This document shows positions 10,935 to 62,700 of a DNA stretch of 64,000 nucleotides, piece after piece. Position 1 is the first letter of the stretch. Every line of letters starts with the position of its first letter. The notes under the pieces are model-generated. The model was not told the origin of the DNA, ran no database searches, and saw only the letters and a program-made list of their open reading frames with translations. The DNA is taken from positions 248,001 to 312,000 of the forward strand of contig NZ_NFJW01000001.1 in assembly GCF_002160065.1 (NCBI RefSeq). The letters run 5' to 3'. Position numbers and translations under genes: made by a program. Origin of the DNA: Collinsella sp. An2 (GTDB lineage Bacteria > Actinomycetota > Coriobacteriia > Coriobacteriales > Coriobacteriaceae).

Positions 10935-11049
10935 ATACGCGGGTGCGAGTGCGCAGAGGTGGGCGCGAGCAACGCCGTCTATTTCCTCATGACCGTCTGC
11001 TGTGGCGTATCCCTTCTATAATGGACGCGTTGGATAGGAGGGGTTGTCA

Positions 11050-12447
11050 ATGGCAGACGGAGAGAGACCGCGACTCACGGCGGCTCAGCTGCACGTGGTG
11101 GTTACGTTGGGGTTCTGCGGACTTGTGTCCGCAGCGGATAACTGGTTTGTTTCTCCGGCGCTGCCTGCTATAGCCCATACGCTTTCTGTGGCCCCGACAG
11201 CTGCGGCAATCGTCTTAACTGCCTACCTGTTGCCGTATGGTGCGCTGCAGCCGGTCTGCGGCAGGCTGGGCGACGGGGTGGGGCGTCTGCGCCTGCTTCG
11301 CATCATCGTGCTGGGCCTTTGCGTGGGTACCTTTCTGTGTGCCGTGGTGCCCAACCTCGAATTCTTGGTGGTCGCGCGCGTGGTAACGGGCTGTTTTGCG
11401 GCGGGCATCATCTCGGTGTCCCAGGCGTTTGTGGGCGATGTGGTTGGACCCGACCGTCGCGCGGGCGCCGTGGGTATCCTCATGGGCATCACCTTCACCG
11501 GGCAGGGACTGTCGGCGGGTCTTGGCGGCATCCTGACTGATCTTGTGGGCTGGCGTGCTGCCTTTGCGGCGTTTGGCGTGCTGGCGGCGCTTGCATGGCT
11601 GGGGTTGTTTACCTTGCGCGAGCCGAAGCATCAGGGGAGCCTCGATTGCAGAGATGGCCGAGATGGCTGCGACGACACCGGCACCGGCGAATCGCGTGTA
11701 ACGGCCCAGGATGTTGATGCGACGAGCATTGCCGCGCCGACTGCGCAGATGCCCTCTGCGGATGCGGTGAGCGCTGCCGCGCACGATTCTTCAGAGCCCA
11801 TTGCGGCGACCAACAAGGCCGTCAATCCCAACAAGACCGTCAATCCCAACAAGACCGTCAACCCCATCGTTGCGTTCTTCCGCGATGCCCTGCGCATCTT
11901 TTTTGGTCCGCATCGGGCAGTGTTCCTGCTTGCATGCAGTACGGGCCTGCTCTTTTTGGGCGTCTATGGTCTTATGGGAACGTTTCTTTCCGAGGCGTGT
12001 GGGCTCACTTCAACGCAGTCCGGCCTGGTGATGATGCTCTACGGCGTCTTCTGTCTCATCGGCGGGGCGCTTTCCGGACGCCTTGGCGCAGGCCGCGGCC
12101 TTGCACATGTTATCGGCATCGGTGAGGTATCGGGGTTGGTGTCTTCCTTAGCGCTTGTCCTTTCGGCCGTATCGGGTTCGTGGGTGCCGGCGCTCGTCGC
12201 TGCCGCCGCGCTCGGCTTGGGCTATATCCTTGTTCAGCCCACGCTTGTTACGCTTTCCATGGAGGCCGATCCAAATCAGGCAGGACTTTGCACCGGTCTC
12301 ATCGGCTTTGCGGTTTTTGCCTGCGGCGGCGTGGGCTCGGCGCTCGGCGGTGCGCTGCTGCAGATGGGCGGCTATCCGCTGCTGTGGGGCATCGCCGCGC
12401 TCTGCCTCGTTCTTCAGCGCATCATCTCTCAGCGCGTCCTCGCCTAG
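11050..12447 (+). CDS. MFS transporter (drug:H+ antiporter-like)
   Basis: A 465-aa major facilitator with about 12 membrane segments split by a long hydrophilic loop (about residues 195-280). The conserved loop 2-3 motif appears as GRLGDGVGRLRL, and ARVVTGCFAAG resembles the segment of multidrug exporters. The substrate is unknown. The central loop carries three exact 18-bp tandem units (11812-11865) encoding repeated NKTVNP. The ATG at 11050 follows AGGAGGGG; a TTG two codons upstream is also possible. A TATAAT at 11017-11022 is a candidate -10. Confidence 0.85.
   Translation: MADGERPRLTAAQLHVVVTLGFCGLVSAADNWFVSPALPAIAHTLSVAPTAAAIVLTAYLLPYGALQPVCGRLGDGVGRLRLLRIIVLGLCVGTFLCAVVPNLEFLVVARVVTGCFAAGIISVSQAFVGDVVGPDRRAGAVGILMGITFTGQGLSAGLGGILTDLVGWRAAFAAFGVLAALAWLGLFTLREPKHQGSLDCRDGRDGCDDTGTGESRVTAQDVDATSIAAPTAQMPSADAVSAAAHDSSEPIAATNKAVNPNKTVNPNKTVNPIVAFFRDALRIFFGPHRAVFLLACSTGLLFLGVYGLMGTFLSEACGLTSTQSGLVMMLYGVFCLIGGALSGRLGAGRGLAHVIGIGEVSGLVSSLALVLSAVSGSWVPALVAAAALGLGYILVQPTLVTLSMEADPNQAGLCTGLIGFAVFACGGVGSALGGALLQMGGYPLLWGIAALCLVLQRIISQRVLA
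11812..11865 (+). repeat. three 18-bp tandem repeats inside MFS gene
   Basis: Units at 11812-11829, 11830-11847 and 11848-11865 differ at two positions in all. They encode a repeated Asn-Lys-(Ala/Thr)-Val-Asn-Pro in the cytoplasmic central loop. The length is a multiple of three, so copy-number change would keep the frame. Confidence 0.9.
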
Positions 12448-12534
12448 CAGGCGTGGCTACCGCATTTCGTTTCGTTCCAAGCTCTGTGCTCGGTTTTGGT
12501 ATCTAGGCTCGGCTGTCAAAAGGGCAGGACGGCC

Positions 12535-12570
12535 ACGGCCCAAAAGCCCCGGCAGGGGCTTTTGGGCCGT
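12535..12570. terminator. perfect 16-bp stem hairpin downstream of MFS gene
   Basis: ACGGCCCAAAAGCCCC (12535-12550) and GGGGCTTTTGGGCCGT (12555-12570) are perfect inverted copies with a GGCA loop. No T run follows the full stem, but the A/T tracts lie inside the arms, so a shorter stem with CTTTTGGG could end transcription in either direction. Confidence 0.55.
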
Positions 12571-12662
12571 GTGGTTCGTGTCGAAAGGGGCACCGCCCGG
12601 CGCCTTGCGTTTATAGCGCTCGGCTACGAGGTGTTTTTTCGGGTGCGGGCGGTGCTCTGTGC

Positions 12663-12807
12663 ACGTTCGTTTCGGAAGAGGGCGTCCAAACGGCGAACTG
12701 CCAAGTAGCCCAATTTGCATCACCTCTTCTACCTGCGGGTTTTTTCTTTGAAACGCCCGGTCTACTCGCCACATCGCGTTTTGGACGCCCTCTTCCGAAA
12801 CGAACGT
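12663..12807. repeat. palindromic element A, copy 3
   Basis: A perfect 28-bp inverted repeat (12663-12690 and 12780-12807) encloses conserved boxes GAACT (12695-12699), AGTAG (12704-12708) and GGTCTACTCG (12759-12768). The outer ends CGTTTCG/CGAAACG and the inner boxes match copies at 24209-24350 and 50529-50670, whereas the rest of the outer stem has an unrelated sequence that still pairs. It lies between the convergent MFS and EamA genes. The remainder of 12448-12979 shows no gene. Confidence 0.85.
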
Positions 12808-12979
12808 ACAATCGGTGGGTTCAAAAGGCTCTGATGGGGTGTTTTCGGGGAGGGCGGCGCCAAACGCGCTGCCTCGGCTGTGCTTGATTTCTCCTGAGGT
12901 GGGCCGGCAAACTGTTCTGTAAGCGGCTGAATGGCTACCAAGATGCTCAAATAGTGCGGCGTTGCATGGGCGCAGCAAG

Positions 12980-13963
12980 TTACCGCTTCTGCGGTCGCGG
13001 CGCATTTACGACGATGATGCCTGCCACAACGAGTACAAGGGCAAGCGCGGTCTGCTGCCACGGTATCGTCGAGGCCTCGTTGAGAAGTAGGCTCGATAAC
13101 ACCACGCCGAAGACGGGCAGGCTAAACTCATAGATCACCACGCGTGAGGTGGGGTTGTGCTTGAGCAGAAGCGACCAGAGCGAATAGGCGATGCCCGACA
13201 CGCAGGCCAGGTAGGAGAGCATGCCCAGCCCCTGAGGTGTCACTTGCCCCAGGCTGCCGCCCAGAACGAGTCCCGCGACCGTGAGCACGGCTCCGCCCAG
13301 TACAAACTGCCAGCCGCTCAGCGCCACGGGGTCATCGCCCTGGGCAAACATATGGATGAGCGCGGCCGAGACAGCGCTTGACACCGAGGCGACCAGAATG
13401 AAGCCCTCGCCGGTGACCGTCATGCTGCCGCCCAGATCCCCACCGGTAAGGTTCGCGATGATAACGCCGGCGAACCCCACGATGCAGCCCACCACCTTGC
13501 GGGCATCGAGTCGCTCCTGGTGAAATACGAGCGCCGCGACGAGAATGGCGAAGAAGGTGCTCGAGCCGTTCACGATTGATCCTCGCACGCCCGGCGCGTT
13601 TGCCACTCCGATATAGAAAAACGCGTACTGCACGATGGTCTGTGCCAGCGCAAGCTTGACGACCTTGTGCCACGACGCGCGGGGCACGCGGGGGATGCCG
13701 CGCCTTCCGATGCCCGCTGCGACCAGTGCGATGACGCCTGCCAGCATAAAGCGAAGGCCGGCGAACAGGAAGACCGATGGAACGTCTGCGGTATCGATGG
13801 CGAGAAACTCGTATCCGAGCTTGATGCACGGTATGGCGCTGCCCCACAGAAGGCAGCTTGCCAGGGCAAGGAGGCATACGCACCAGGTTCGGGAGAGAAG
13901 CGGCGGCCGGTCCCGAGGAACCGTCTCGTGGTCTGCCGTTGCTGCAACCTGCTGTCGCTCCAT
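12980..13963 (-). CDS. EamA/DMT-family exporter
   Basis: A 327-aa drug/metabolite transporter-superfamily protein with ten predicted membrane helices arranged as two EamA repeats (about 30-165 and 180-315). WGSAIPCIKLGYEF and the SxxxYxLWSLLLK-type segment are typical. Substrates in the family include amino acids and metabolites; none can be assigned. The ATG at 13963 is used because the upstream 89 codons of open frame have no membrane character. The ribosome site is weak (GAGAGG/ACGAGG). It converges with the MFS gene across the A3 palindrome. Confidence 0.82.
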   Translation of the reverse strand: MERQQVAATADHETVPRDRPPLLSRTWCVCLLALASCLLWGSAIPCIKLGYEFLAIDTADVPSVFLFAGLRFMLAGVIALVAAGIGRRGIPRVPRASWHKVVKLALAQTIVQYAFFYIGVANAPGVRGSIVNGSSTFFAILVAALVFHQERLDARKVVGCIVGFAGVIIANLTGGDLGGSMTVTGEGFILVASVSSAVSAALIHMFAQGDDPVALSGWQFVLGGAVLTVAGLVLGGSLGQVTPQGLGMLSYLACVSGIAYSLWSLLLKHNPTSRVVIYEFSLPVFGVVLSSLLLNEASTIPWQQTALALVLVVAGIIVVNAPRPQKR

Positions 13964-14305
13964 GAACCTCGTGCCTCTCGTTTGCTTCGCTTGGTGTCGG
14001 CGTGCCGTATGGCGCCCGATATATTGTGGGACATTGCGACGGTGAGGGCCATGCTCAATTGCGCTTCGGTACGAGTTGCCACAACCCCCGCGCCCTCCGC
14101 TGTCCGTTTCGACCGTATGCTCCGCAGCGCCCCGGCCATACACCCAAGTCGCCCGCTCAGTCGCCGCCTCCGTGCGCCCTGGTGCCGCACGAATTTCACC
14201 CACGGCAGAGGCTTGCCGAGGCATCATCACAAACCTTCCACTTACATTGAGCGGAAAAACTTGTTAGGCTAATCCGCACAGCTGCACAACCGACTACATA
14301 TTCAG

Positions 14306-24208: not shown

Positions 24209-24350
24209 AACTCGTTTCGGTTTTATGCAGTTATTTCGCAACTCGCCGAGTAGCCGCTTGATTTTGGCAACGAAAGCCCAGGATTCCGAGGTGCTATAAC
24301 TCGCTCTACTTTGCAGATCGCGAATAAACTGCATAAAAACGAAACGAGTT
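24209..24350. repeat. palindromic element A, copy 1
   Basis: A 142-bp imperfect palindrome. AACTCGTTTCG (24209) is matched by CGAAACGAGTT ending at 24350. The arms contain TTTTATGCAGTT and its complement. Inner boxes are AACT (24240), CGAGTAG (24247-24253) and CTCTACT (24304-24310). It has the same length and design as the copy at 50529-50670. It fills most of 24131-24519 between the TetR gene and clpC; the remaining bases hold a direct CGACTATT repeat near 24444 and 24456 before clpC. Confidence 0.9.
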
Positions 24351-44263: not shown

Positions 44264-44341
44264 GGGGTCCGGCCGTTTCATCCTTCGCTGGTCCTCGCGC
44301 TTCGCGCTGCGGAATCGCTCAGGACGAAACGGCCGGACCCC
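44264..44341. repeat. palindromic element D, copy 1
   Basis: GGGGTCCGGCCGTTTC (44264-44279) and GAAACGGCCGGACCCC (44326-44341) are perfect inverted arms. The core reads CGCTGGTCCTCGCGCTTCGC and GCTGCGGAATCGCTCAGGAC. The same core, inverted, occurs in copy 2 with a different arm sequence. It lies directly downstream of leuA. Confidence 0.9.
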
Positions 44342-44393
44342 TCTCGAGTGTTCTCCGCGGCGCGTTGATTCGGCCTACGTGCTCGGGGGCTTA

Positions 44394-44465
44394 AAATAAA
44401 GATGGTGCACCGCTTCGCGGTGCCCTGAACAAAACGCGAGGCGTAGCCTCGCACCAACTTTATTT
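44394..44465. repeat. three-way-junction-like element
   Basis: The outer stem AAATAAAG-TGGTGC with GCACCA-CTTTATTT encloses two hairpins, GCACCGC/GCGGTGC and GCGAGGC/GCCTCGC. The predicted fold is a compact three-way junction between D1 and D2 in the 363-bp leuA-leuC spacer. No gene is present in 44255-44617. Confidence 0.65.
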
Positions 44466-44511
44466 CATCTATCAATGCGCTAGATGGAGTACCTGAAAGA
44501 AACGGTTCGTA

Positions 44512-44587
44512 GAGCCCTGGAGCATCGTCCCGAGCGCTTCCGCAGCGCGTAGCGCGAGGACCAGCGAGGGATGATGCTCCAGGGCTC
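44512..44587. repeat. palindromic element D, copy 2
   Basis: GAGCCCTGGAGCAT and ATGCTCCAGGGCTC are perfect inverted arms at the two ends. The core is the reverse complement of the D1 core with two or three changes, while the arms share no sequence with D1. Confidence 0.9.
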
Positions 44588-46650: not shown

Positions 46651-46656
46651 CATCTG

Positions 46657-46724
46657 CCATTGGGGACGGGTACATTTGGCAGATGTTCCGCCATTGGGGA
46701 CGGGTACATTTGACAAATGTTTCG
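46657..46724. repeat. two 34-bp tandem repeats (E)
   Basis: Units 46657-46690 and 46691-46724 are directly adjacent and nearly identical (CCATTGGGGACGGGTACATT at the start). AACATCTGCC (46649) and GGCAGATGTT (46678) form a stem over the first unit. GGGGACGGGT-type extragenic repeats are seen in many gut bacteria and may relate to REP-associated elements. Confidence 0.8.
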
Positions 46725-50400: not shown

Positions 50401-50528
50401 GCCATTATGTGGTTCGGCTGCCTCGCTGTTCTGCCGCCGTTCCGGCGGTGGTCGCATGCGTCGCTTTTTAGGAGCCTATTGTAGGGACCTATTGCCTGCT
50501 TTTTATTGTGGCGAAGGGGCCTTGGAAG

Positions 50529-50670
50529 AACTCGTTTCGTTTTTATGCAGTTAATTCCGAACTTCTCGAGTAGACGGCCGATTTCGTCGGCAAGGCCCCA
50601 GGATTTTGGGACCCGAAAACCGGGTCTACTCGGCAGGTCGTGAAATAACTGCATAAAAACGAAACGAACA
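50529..50670. repeat. palindromic element A, copy 2
   Basis: A 142-bp palindrome with AACTCGTTTCG at the left, CGAAACGA near the right end and TTTTTATGCAGTTA arms. The inner boxes are GAACT (50559-50563), CGAGTAG (50567-50573) and GGTCTACTCG (50623-50632), with a perfect CGAGTAG/CTACTCG inner stem. It lies in the 680-bp spacer 50401-51080, in which I see no other gene or element. Confidence 0.9.
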
Positions 50671-62430: not shown

Positions 62431-62700
62431 GATGCGTGTTCGTGCTGATAGTTGCGTGCGTCCGGCACGAGTTGCGTGCCCCGTTTTCAAGTTACGTGCG
62501 CCAAACGAAAGTTGCGGGCGCAATTCAGCCATTTCGGGCCCCTTGGGAGGCGTTTTTTGGACGAAATCCTCCATCAACTTTTGCTGGGCGCACGCAACGG
62601 CGACGGGGCGTACGAAACTCGCATCGGGCGCACACAACTCCGACAAGGGGCGCGCAACGAGCGGTGGAGCGTACGCAACACTGATGGAAAGCGTGCAACA
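62431..62700. repeat. 20-bp-periodic inverted array B2
   Basis: The left side has GTTGCGTGCG-like words at 62451, 62471, 62491 and 62511 (and a decayed one at 62431), each 20 bp apart. The right side has complementary CGCACGCAAC-like words at 62589, 62609, 62629, 62649, 62670 and 62690. The centre (62521-62588) contains ATTTCG/CGAAAT and GGAGG/CCTCC inverted pairs. The word and period equal those of the array at 212-410. No gene is present in 62338-62794. Confidence 0.85.

Follow-up and report, generated by a model that had tools for sequence, protein, structure and literature searches.

Correia elements are an example of MITEs, and the usual MITE pattern is the reverse of a conserved interior with exchanged ends. 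QMITE1/2 are a further example, described in PMC5896051. REPINs and BIMEs are REP doublets moved by RAYT, and compensatory changes in them are reported in PMC3116915. Palindromes of A. variabilis, T. roseum and H. neapolitanus can contain REP elements or dimers; where the dimers are tagged by GTAG, the outer palindrome presents one consensus per species (PMC3733652). The candidate RNAs reported in PMC8040213 include some from Collinsella, and 250 that are palindromic; the Coriobacteriaceae repeat presented here may be among these candidates, and no published description of it was found in the literature, including queries naming Collinsella or Coriobacter. About 50 copies of this hairpin-shaped repeat are present in the genome of Collinsella sp. 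An2, of which a stretch of 64,000 nucleotides (the window) was analysed. Covariation of a whole stem is usually taken as proof of RNA structure. Our preferred reading, with chances slightly better than even, is a mobile DNA element, non-autonomous, in which the two arms serve as a pair of recognition sites specific to the lineage.

Copy 3 of the repeat is flanked by two convergent genes, one for an MFS transporter (11044-12447, +), the other for an EamA transporter (12980-14230, -). As claimed by the first-pass annotation, positions 12663-12690 and 12780-12807 form a perfect inverted repeat, 28 of 28 bases being complementary on direct reading; the inverted-repeat listing has a longer imperfect pair around them (12660-12711/12759-12810, 52 nt, 85 %). 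The left arm (12663-12690, +) is of the subfamily B type, ACGTTCGTTTCGGAAGAGGGCGTCC followed by AAA, the arm type of 22 B copies, the right arm (12780-12807, +) is its complement, and an A-to-G change individual to this copy is present on both arms. The inner left spacer (12691-12701, +) contains GAACT and is low in identity and pairing. It is followed by the core of 69 nt (12702-12770, +) with the CAAGTAGCCC box, the central ACCTGCGGG and the GGTCTACTCG box; the ACCTGCGG motif in its centre (12731-12738, +) gives the core its direction. The annotation had itself raised the case against its reading, an unrelated terminator with boxes matching by chance. This is ruled out: in a search of the window the core model R1 matched the core of copy 3, one of the 31 sequences used to build it, with 63.7 bits (E 1.1e-13), and the sole terminator-like match in its vicinity (12643-12662, 1.1 expected) lies outside the arms. 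The boxes common to A and B are not due to chance, and therefore the terminator explanation fails. Within the element of copy 3, no GC-rich hairpin followed by a T run, as in an intrinsic terminator, was present.

Over all copies the core reads CGAGTAGACC...ACCTGCGG.TTTGT...GGTCTACTCG, with GAGTAG/CTACTC (AAGTAG in copy 3) and ACCTGCGG as conserved boxes; the motif columns CC, G and TTT are invariant or nearly so in the core alignment A1. GAACT had been taken for a conserved inner box, a view that did not hold, as few parts of the element are less conserved than this spacer and its pairing exceeds the background little. Visual inspection had suggested a hairpin inside the core; this was dismissed, the consensus fold yielding box pairs only. 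Of the 31 cores that went into the covariance model R1, 25 came from this genome (including copy 3) and six from other genera. The model gave 70 matches at E <= 10 in the own genome, a count in which some copies appear a second time through their other strand, and in a search of 65 genomes of the family Coriobacteriaceae, matches at E <= 1e-4 were obtained in 39 (the own one included) and in five of six genera. A strict core pattern was found in 13 stretches of an 84,980-species collection from which the source genome was possibly left out, all of them named Collinsella or Coriobacteriaceae, and in none of a viral collection. Conservation of the core is family-wide.

The 48 copies aligned from the own genome carried A arms on both sides (26 copies) or B arms on both sides (22 copies), and hybrids with one A and one B arm did not occur among them. 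Judged by its arms, copy 3 is a member of the 22-copy subfamily B. The first-pass annotation had described it as a copy of element A with a swapped stem; the common core stands, the lone swap is excluded by the B membership. Its observation that the outer stem differs from A on both sides was correct, for the inner arm is unrelated to the A arm while CGTTTCG is common to both, and the distances between ends and boxes, said to be kept within one base, proved to be 13/11 nt from arm to core in A and 14/12 nt in B in nearly all copies. With an A copy of the window as query (50526-50670), 88 matches at E <= 10 were obtained in the own genome, many of them one copy counted on two strands; copy 3 gave 39, mostly at other places, and its full-length relatives elsewhere in the genome had a best E of 2.4e-52 (BLAST). 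Subfamily A copies of the window are located at 24212-24347 (-; core 24245-24313, -; with a gene downstream) and at 50532-50667 (-; core 50565-50632, -), both recovered by inverted-repeat, genome and R1 searches.

The arms were compared in 157 copies, the 48 own ones and 109 from 31 other genomes. The latter were located by their core and not by their arms, so that arm pairing was not built in. Their left flanks aligned to the reversed right flanks with a median local score of 42 (minimum 11), against a median of 14 and a 90th percentile of 22 for random flank pairs, a null with a swollen tail because the random pairs include pairs of one arm type. At distances of 15-31 nt from the core edge, 80-98 % of the copies were paired per position, and the pairing fell to background by ~42 nt, all in a single register (offset 2) that is continuous with the register of the core boxes. 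The copies were assigned to 28 arm clusters, an approximate number since they were grouped crudely, at 64 % identity across 22 nt; B has probably been merged with a look-alike from other genomes in one large cluster. For one representative per cluster, Watson-Crick pairing at 15-31 nt was observed in 82 % of 476 cells at the fixed register, versus 21-35 % at ten other offsets. The annotation's claim that a whole stem covaries is confirmed as real and far more general than could be seen from the window, with 28 clusters in one register and two orthologous pairs changed on both arms. In C. tanakaei ET30 (G008) and ET10 (G068) a copy is present at the same place, in the same orientation and with a nearly identical right flank. 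Its arms are TTTAGGGGACGG and TTTACGGTTCGG, respectively, with three changes on the left and three exactly complementary ones on the right; two more changes, close to the edges of the arms, affect one side only. In the ET10 genome, the arm type of this copy is the prevalent one. The second pair is the A copy at 24212 and its counterpart in G002, with GCAGTT changed to GCAGAT in both arms. At the syntenic site in G001 the element is absent, as is a counterpart of copy 3 at the syntenic site in both G001 and G002. G015 is ~145 bp shorter at a site compared with G011, the alignment being too diverged for a clean empty site; among the sites compared, none was clean to the base, the flanks being too diverged.

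The further conclusion of the annotation, that such covariation is strong evidence for the fold itself, is not supported as stated, and an ordinary RNA structure makes the weaker explanation. Stem covariation is weak evidence for an RNA fold because inverted recognition sites such as terminal repeats leave the same signature. Were the fold itself selected, as a long hairpin RNA or a structure at the transcript end, the stem sequence would be free as long as it paired, an explanation that we consider distinctly unlikely. It would agree with the 28 clusters paired in one register, with the very stable fold predicted for copy 3 on both strands (-78.2 kcal/mol, z ~ -10 on the + strand; -89.2 kcal/mol, z ~ -10.7 on the - strand; 200 shuffles each) and with a small excess of matching within copies in four of 15 groups. 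RNA stems are expected to contain wobble pairs in excess. In the 28 representatives, however, the arms had no such excess at 15-31 nt: the 269 cells without Watson-Crick pairing comprised 58 GT and 51 AC, 41 % versus 37 % in the flanking control. A clear strand preference was likewise lacking, the arms share one sequence per genome rather than drifting with compensation, and covariation was found for none of the five predicted pairs of the core boxes. Over the element of copy 3, no Rfam family reached its gathering score; one miRNA match, with 19.2 bits against 90, was weak and chance-like.

Between copies of one genome the arms were mostly 79-97 % identical (60 % in one three-copy group), the loops 52-77 %. 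Identity profiles of nine groups were highest in the arms (mostly 0.8-1.0), lower in the core (0.59-0.83) and near background (0.20-0.37) from ~56 nt outward; the drop occurred just outside the arms, and later for groups in larger units or with longer arms. The arms are inverted in a fixed register, different between lineages and alike within a genome. The lack of a wobble excess and the near-invariant arms beside diverging cores lean towards recognition at the DNA level. Matching within copies exceeded matching between copies in A (0.960 vs 0.947, p 0.017), B (0.964 vs 0.940, p 0.001), G008 (0.952 vs 0.866, 0 of 5000) and G064 (0.905 vs 0.831, p 0.03), p values that are inflated by relatedness, as are those of the A and B columns below. 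In the other 11 of the 15 groups there was no excess at p 0.05, and in G015 and G068 the sign was reversed. The excess could result from pairing or from shared descent, and relatedness alone can produce one of this kind. The commonest polymorphism of the A arm (column 12) was uncoordinated, being the same on both sides in 15 of 26 copies with 12.5 expected (p 0.28), and at most individual positions of the A and B arms there was no coordination between left and right; the few that did were column 7 in A (p 0.004) and columns 4 and 8 in B (p 0.02-0.03). In three groups (G006, G047 and one of those in G002), left arms were more alike among each other (0.91-0.98) than to their own right arms (0.81-0.87). 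This and the uncoordinated A polymorphism again favour DNA-level recognition. In these comparisons taken together, both arms follow a single sequence throughout the genome, to which is added a weak coupling within the copy, some of which may be real. Recognition of a DNA cruciform or a single-stranded DNA hairpin, in replication, recombination or chromosome structure and without mobility of its own, would suit the continuous register from core boxes to arms, the symmetry on both strands and the intergenic position; we regard it as unlikely, however, as the arm sequence is constrained within a genome, which a role of structure only does not need, the presence is patchy (39 of 65 genomes) and the similarity stops sharply at the arms.

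The unit ends at the arms and has no target duplication: in five of six group tests, the longest direct repeats flanking the arm-bounded unit were no better than with shuffled pairing, and the sixth, G002, was slightly higher (4.12 vs 3.66, sd 0.30). An ordinary DDE transposase is therefore unlikely for this unit. Eleven B copies are part of a larger unit of 222-225 bp with the ends GGAAACGCTGAA...TCAGCGTTTTC and, in seven of the 11, identical 4-bp duplications (CTAG, CTAA, CTTG, CCAG). By its ends and duplications this larger unit is a real MITE carrying the hairpin; the duplications are of the type CYWR. Neither copy 3 nor L032 and L033, the copies closest to it, have clear ends of this unit on both sides. 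The outer B repeat matched the own genome 11 times, always adjoining B copies, and an autonomous element or transposase with these ends was not seen in the own assembly. It is very unlikely, in our view, that only the core is mobile and inserts into pre-existing palindromes, the arms being target sequence. This has the precedent of PMC3733652, and arms that differ around a common core as well as GTAG at the core edges are consistent with it. Yet single-arm matches in the own genome were paired around cores, except for a few weak isolated ones, and so provide no clear empty palindromes; the arms are, moreover, the most conserved part within a genome, and an orthologous site changed its arms while the copy was retained.

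Ten A copies reside inside another larger repeat, X..Y, with L006 having only Y recognisable. Measured against X and Y, five copies have the interior in forward and five in reverse orientation. The tree of these interiors has four orientation changes (bootstrap 3-4, with weak branch support), and none of 200 bootstraps gave a one-change tree; the repeated changes indicate that in this subset the interior inverts between its arms. Empty X..Y units did not appear, the X flank being found only beside A copies and in one weak match (E 0.02). The flipping would be expected if the arms were recombination sites of a dedicated invertase of the phase-variation type, one enzyme serving many sites. Such a role seems highly improbable to us: around copy 3 no promoter of the sigma-70 pattern was found in 12400-13050, of 157 copies, 36 have convergent genes as neighbours but only 15 divergent ones, and the recognisable B units keep one orientation throughout. 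Moreover, classical invertases act on sites farther apart than the ~95 bp that separate these arms.

Among the 157 copies, codirectional neighbours had little strand bias (>> 44, << 35); of the remaining copies, 24 were called inside a frame by the crude GC-frame script used for all gene calls, and are taken as false frames, and three had one neighbour only. The element is intergenic. No common neighbour or partner gene emerged from 497 predicted flanking proteins, the top clusters of which were household-like by eye. In several genomes of genus g2, copies occur in apparently equivalent gene neighbourhoods (L107, L112, L113, L116, L117; a second set L114, L186, L187, L188), one of them adjoining apparent ribosomal protein S12/S7 genes, near which the own B copy L075 is also located. 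Paired elements 160-240 nt apart were observed at L052, L092, L128, L136, L142, L143 and L144, sometimes with different arm types and in both relative orientations. Further repeats were noted: CCATTGGGGACGGGTACA... in tandem at 46653-46720 of the window and as an inverted pair at L064 (2046-2178) beside the gene of the own genome for a 251-aa Y1_Tnp (RAYT-like) protein; a large inverted repeat (44278-44574 of the window; 50 nt, 92 %) around a stretch of 197 nt, itself repeat-bearing (AAATAAAG...CTTTATTT); and GCGCACGTAAC... in inverted copies at 330-403 and 62468-62521, 62 kb apart.

The mobile element that we favour would be a unit of ~140 bp, hairpin-capable and confined, as far as seen, to Coriobacteriaceae. 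It is built in two layers: the core, which is universal and consists of the GAGTAG box, the ACCTGCGG motif and the CTACTC box, and lineage-specific inverted arms of ~20-35 bp. A trans-acting recombinase or transposase would bind and pair both arms, so that both have to carry the same sequence, and with a change of the enzyme or of its specificity both arms would change together. Arm exchange inside a copy, by inversion or template switching, probably adds to the matching. The repeat looks like a DNA parasite that changes the address by which its enzyme recognises it. Against the mobile reading stand the conserved asymmetric core, which arm recognition alone does not explain, and the lack of an enzyme or partner gene, of a clean base-exact empty site and of a target duplication, as well as the small surplus of within-copy matching in four of 15 groups; the neighbour clusters, the search with the outer B ends and the census and loci of Y1_Tnp proteins offered no candidate. 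A repeat of an undescribed kind is conceivable, though fairly unlikely, in which one conserved factor reads the central module and fast-changing recombinases read the arms as an address, the unit moving via a hairpin without target duplication and inverting its interior. If so, its recombination chemistry would be new, with ends that can be re-addressed. Should the element be mobile, the lineages provide a natural series of end swaps for finding and testing the recombinase. Paired DNA recognition sites explain the covariation of the 28 clusters at least as well as RNA structure, and repeats of this type could be mistaken for RNAs by motif finders with a covariation score.

With respect to REPINs, Y1_Tnp proteins are encoded in 53 of the 65 family genomes. 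They are absent from G011, G015 and G047, which carry 13, 6 and 13 copies, and no core was found within ten Y1_Tnp loci. A REP stem-loop was detected neither in the arms, where the 28 representatives folded no better than shuffles (mean z 0.18), nor beside the GTAG of the core, where the adjacent 22 nt of the 157 copies were shuffle-like (mean z -0.05 and -0.38). For these three reasons, a REPIN or a RAYT-driven element was rejected. The element behaves as a mobile inverted-repeat element would, and by the tests applied it falls outside the REPINs and outside the DDE-type MITEs as well. Like MITEs such as QMITE1/2 (PMC5896051), it is small and non-autonomous and has terminal inverted repeats where the repeat unit ends, and part of B is inside a true MITE. 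Unlike them, its arm-bounded unit has no target duplication, and its interior is the conserved part, with the ends exchanged. The GTAG-tagged REP dimers (PMC3733652) resemble it in GTAG/CTAC at the edges of the central unit and palindromic arms outside, but differ in that it has 28 arm clusters and no stem-loop adjacent to GTAG. With REPINs and BIMEs, according to PMC3116915, it shares the form of a short, intergenic, hairpin-forming inverted-repeat unit and genome-specific conserved ends with several types per genome, whereas in the Coriobacteriaceae the core is common across genera while the ends change.
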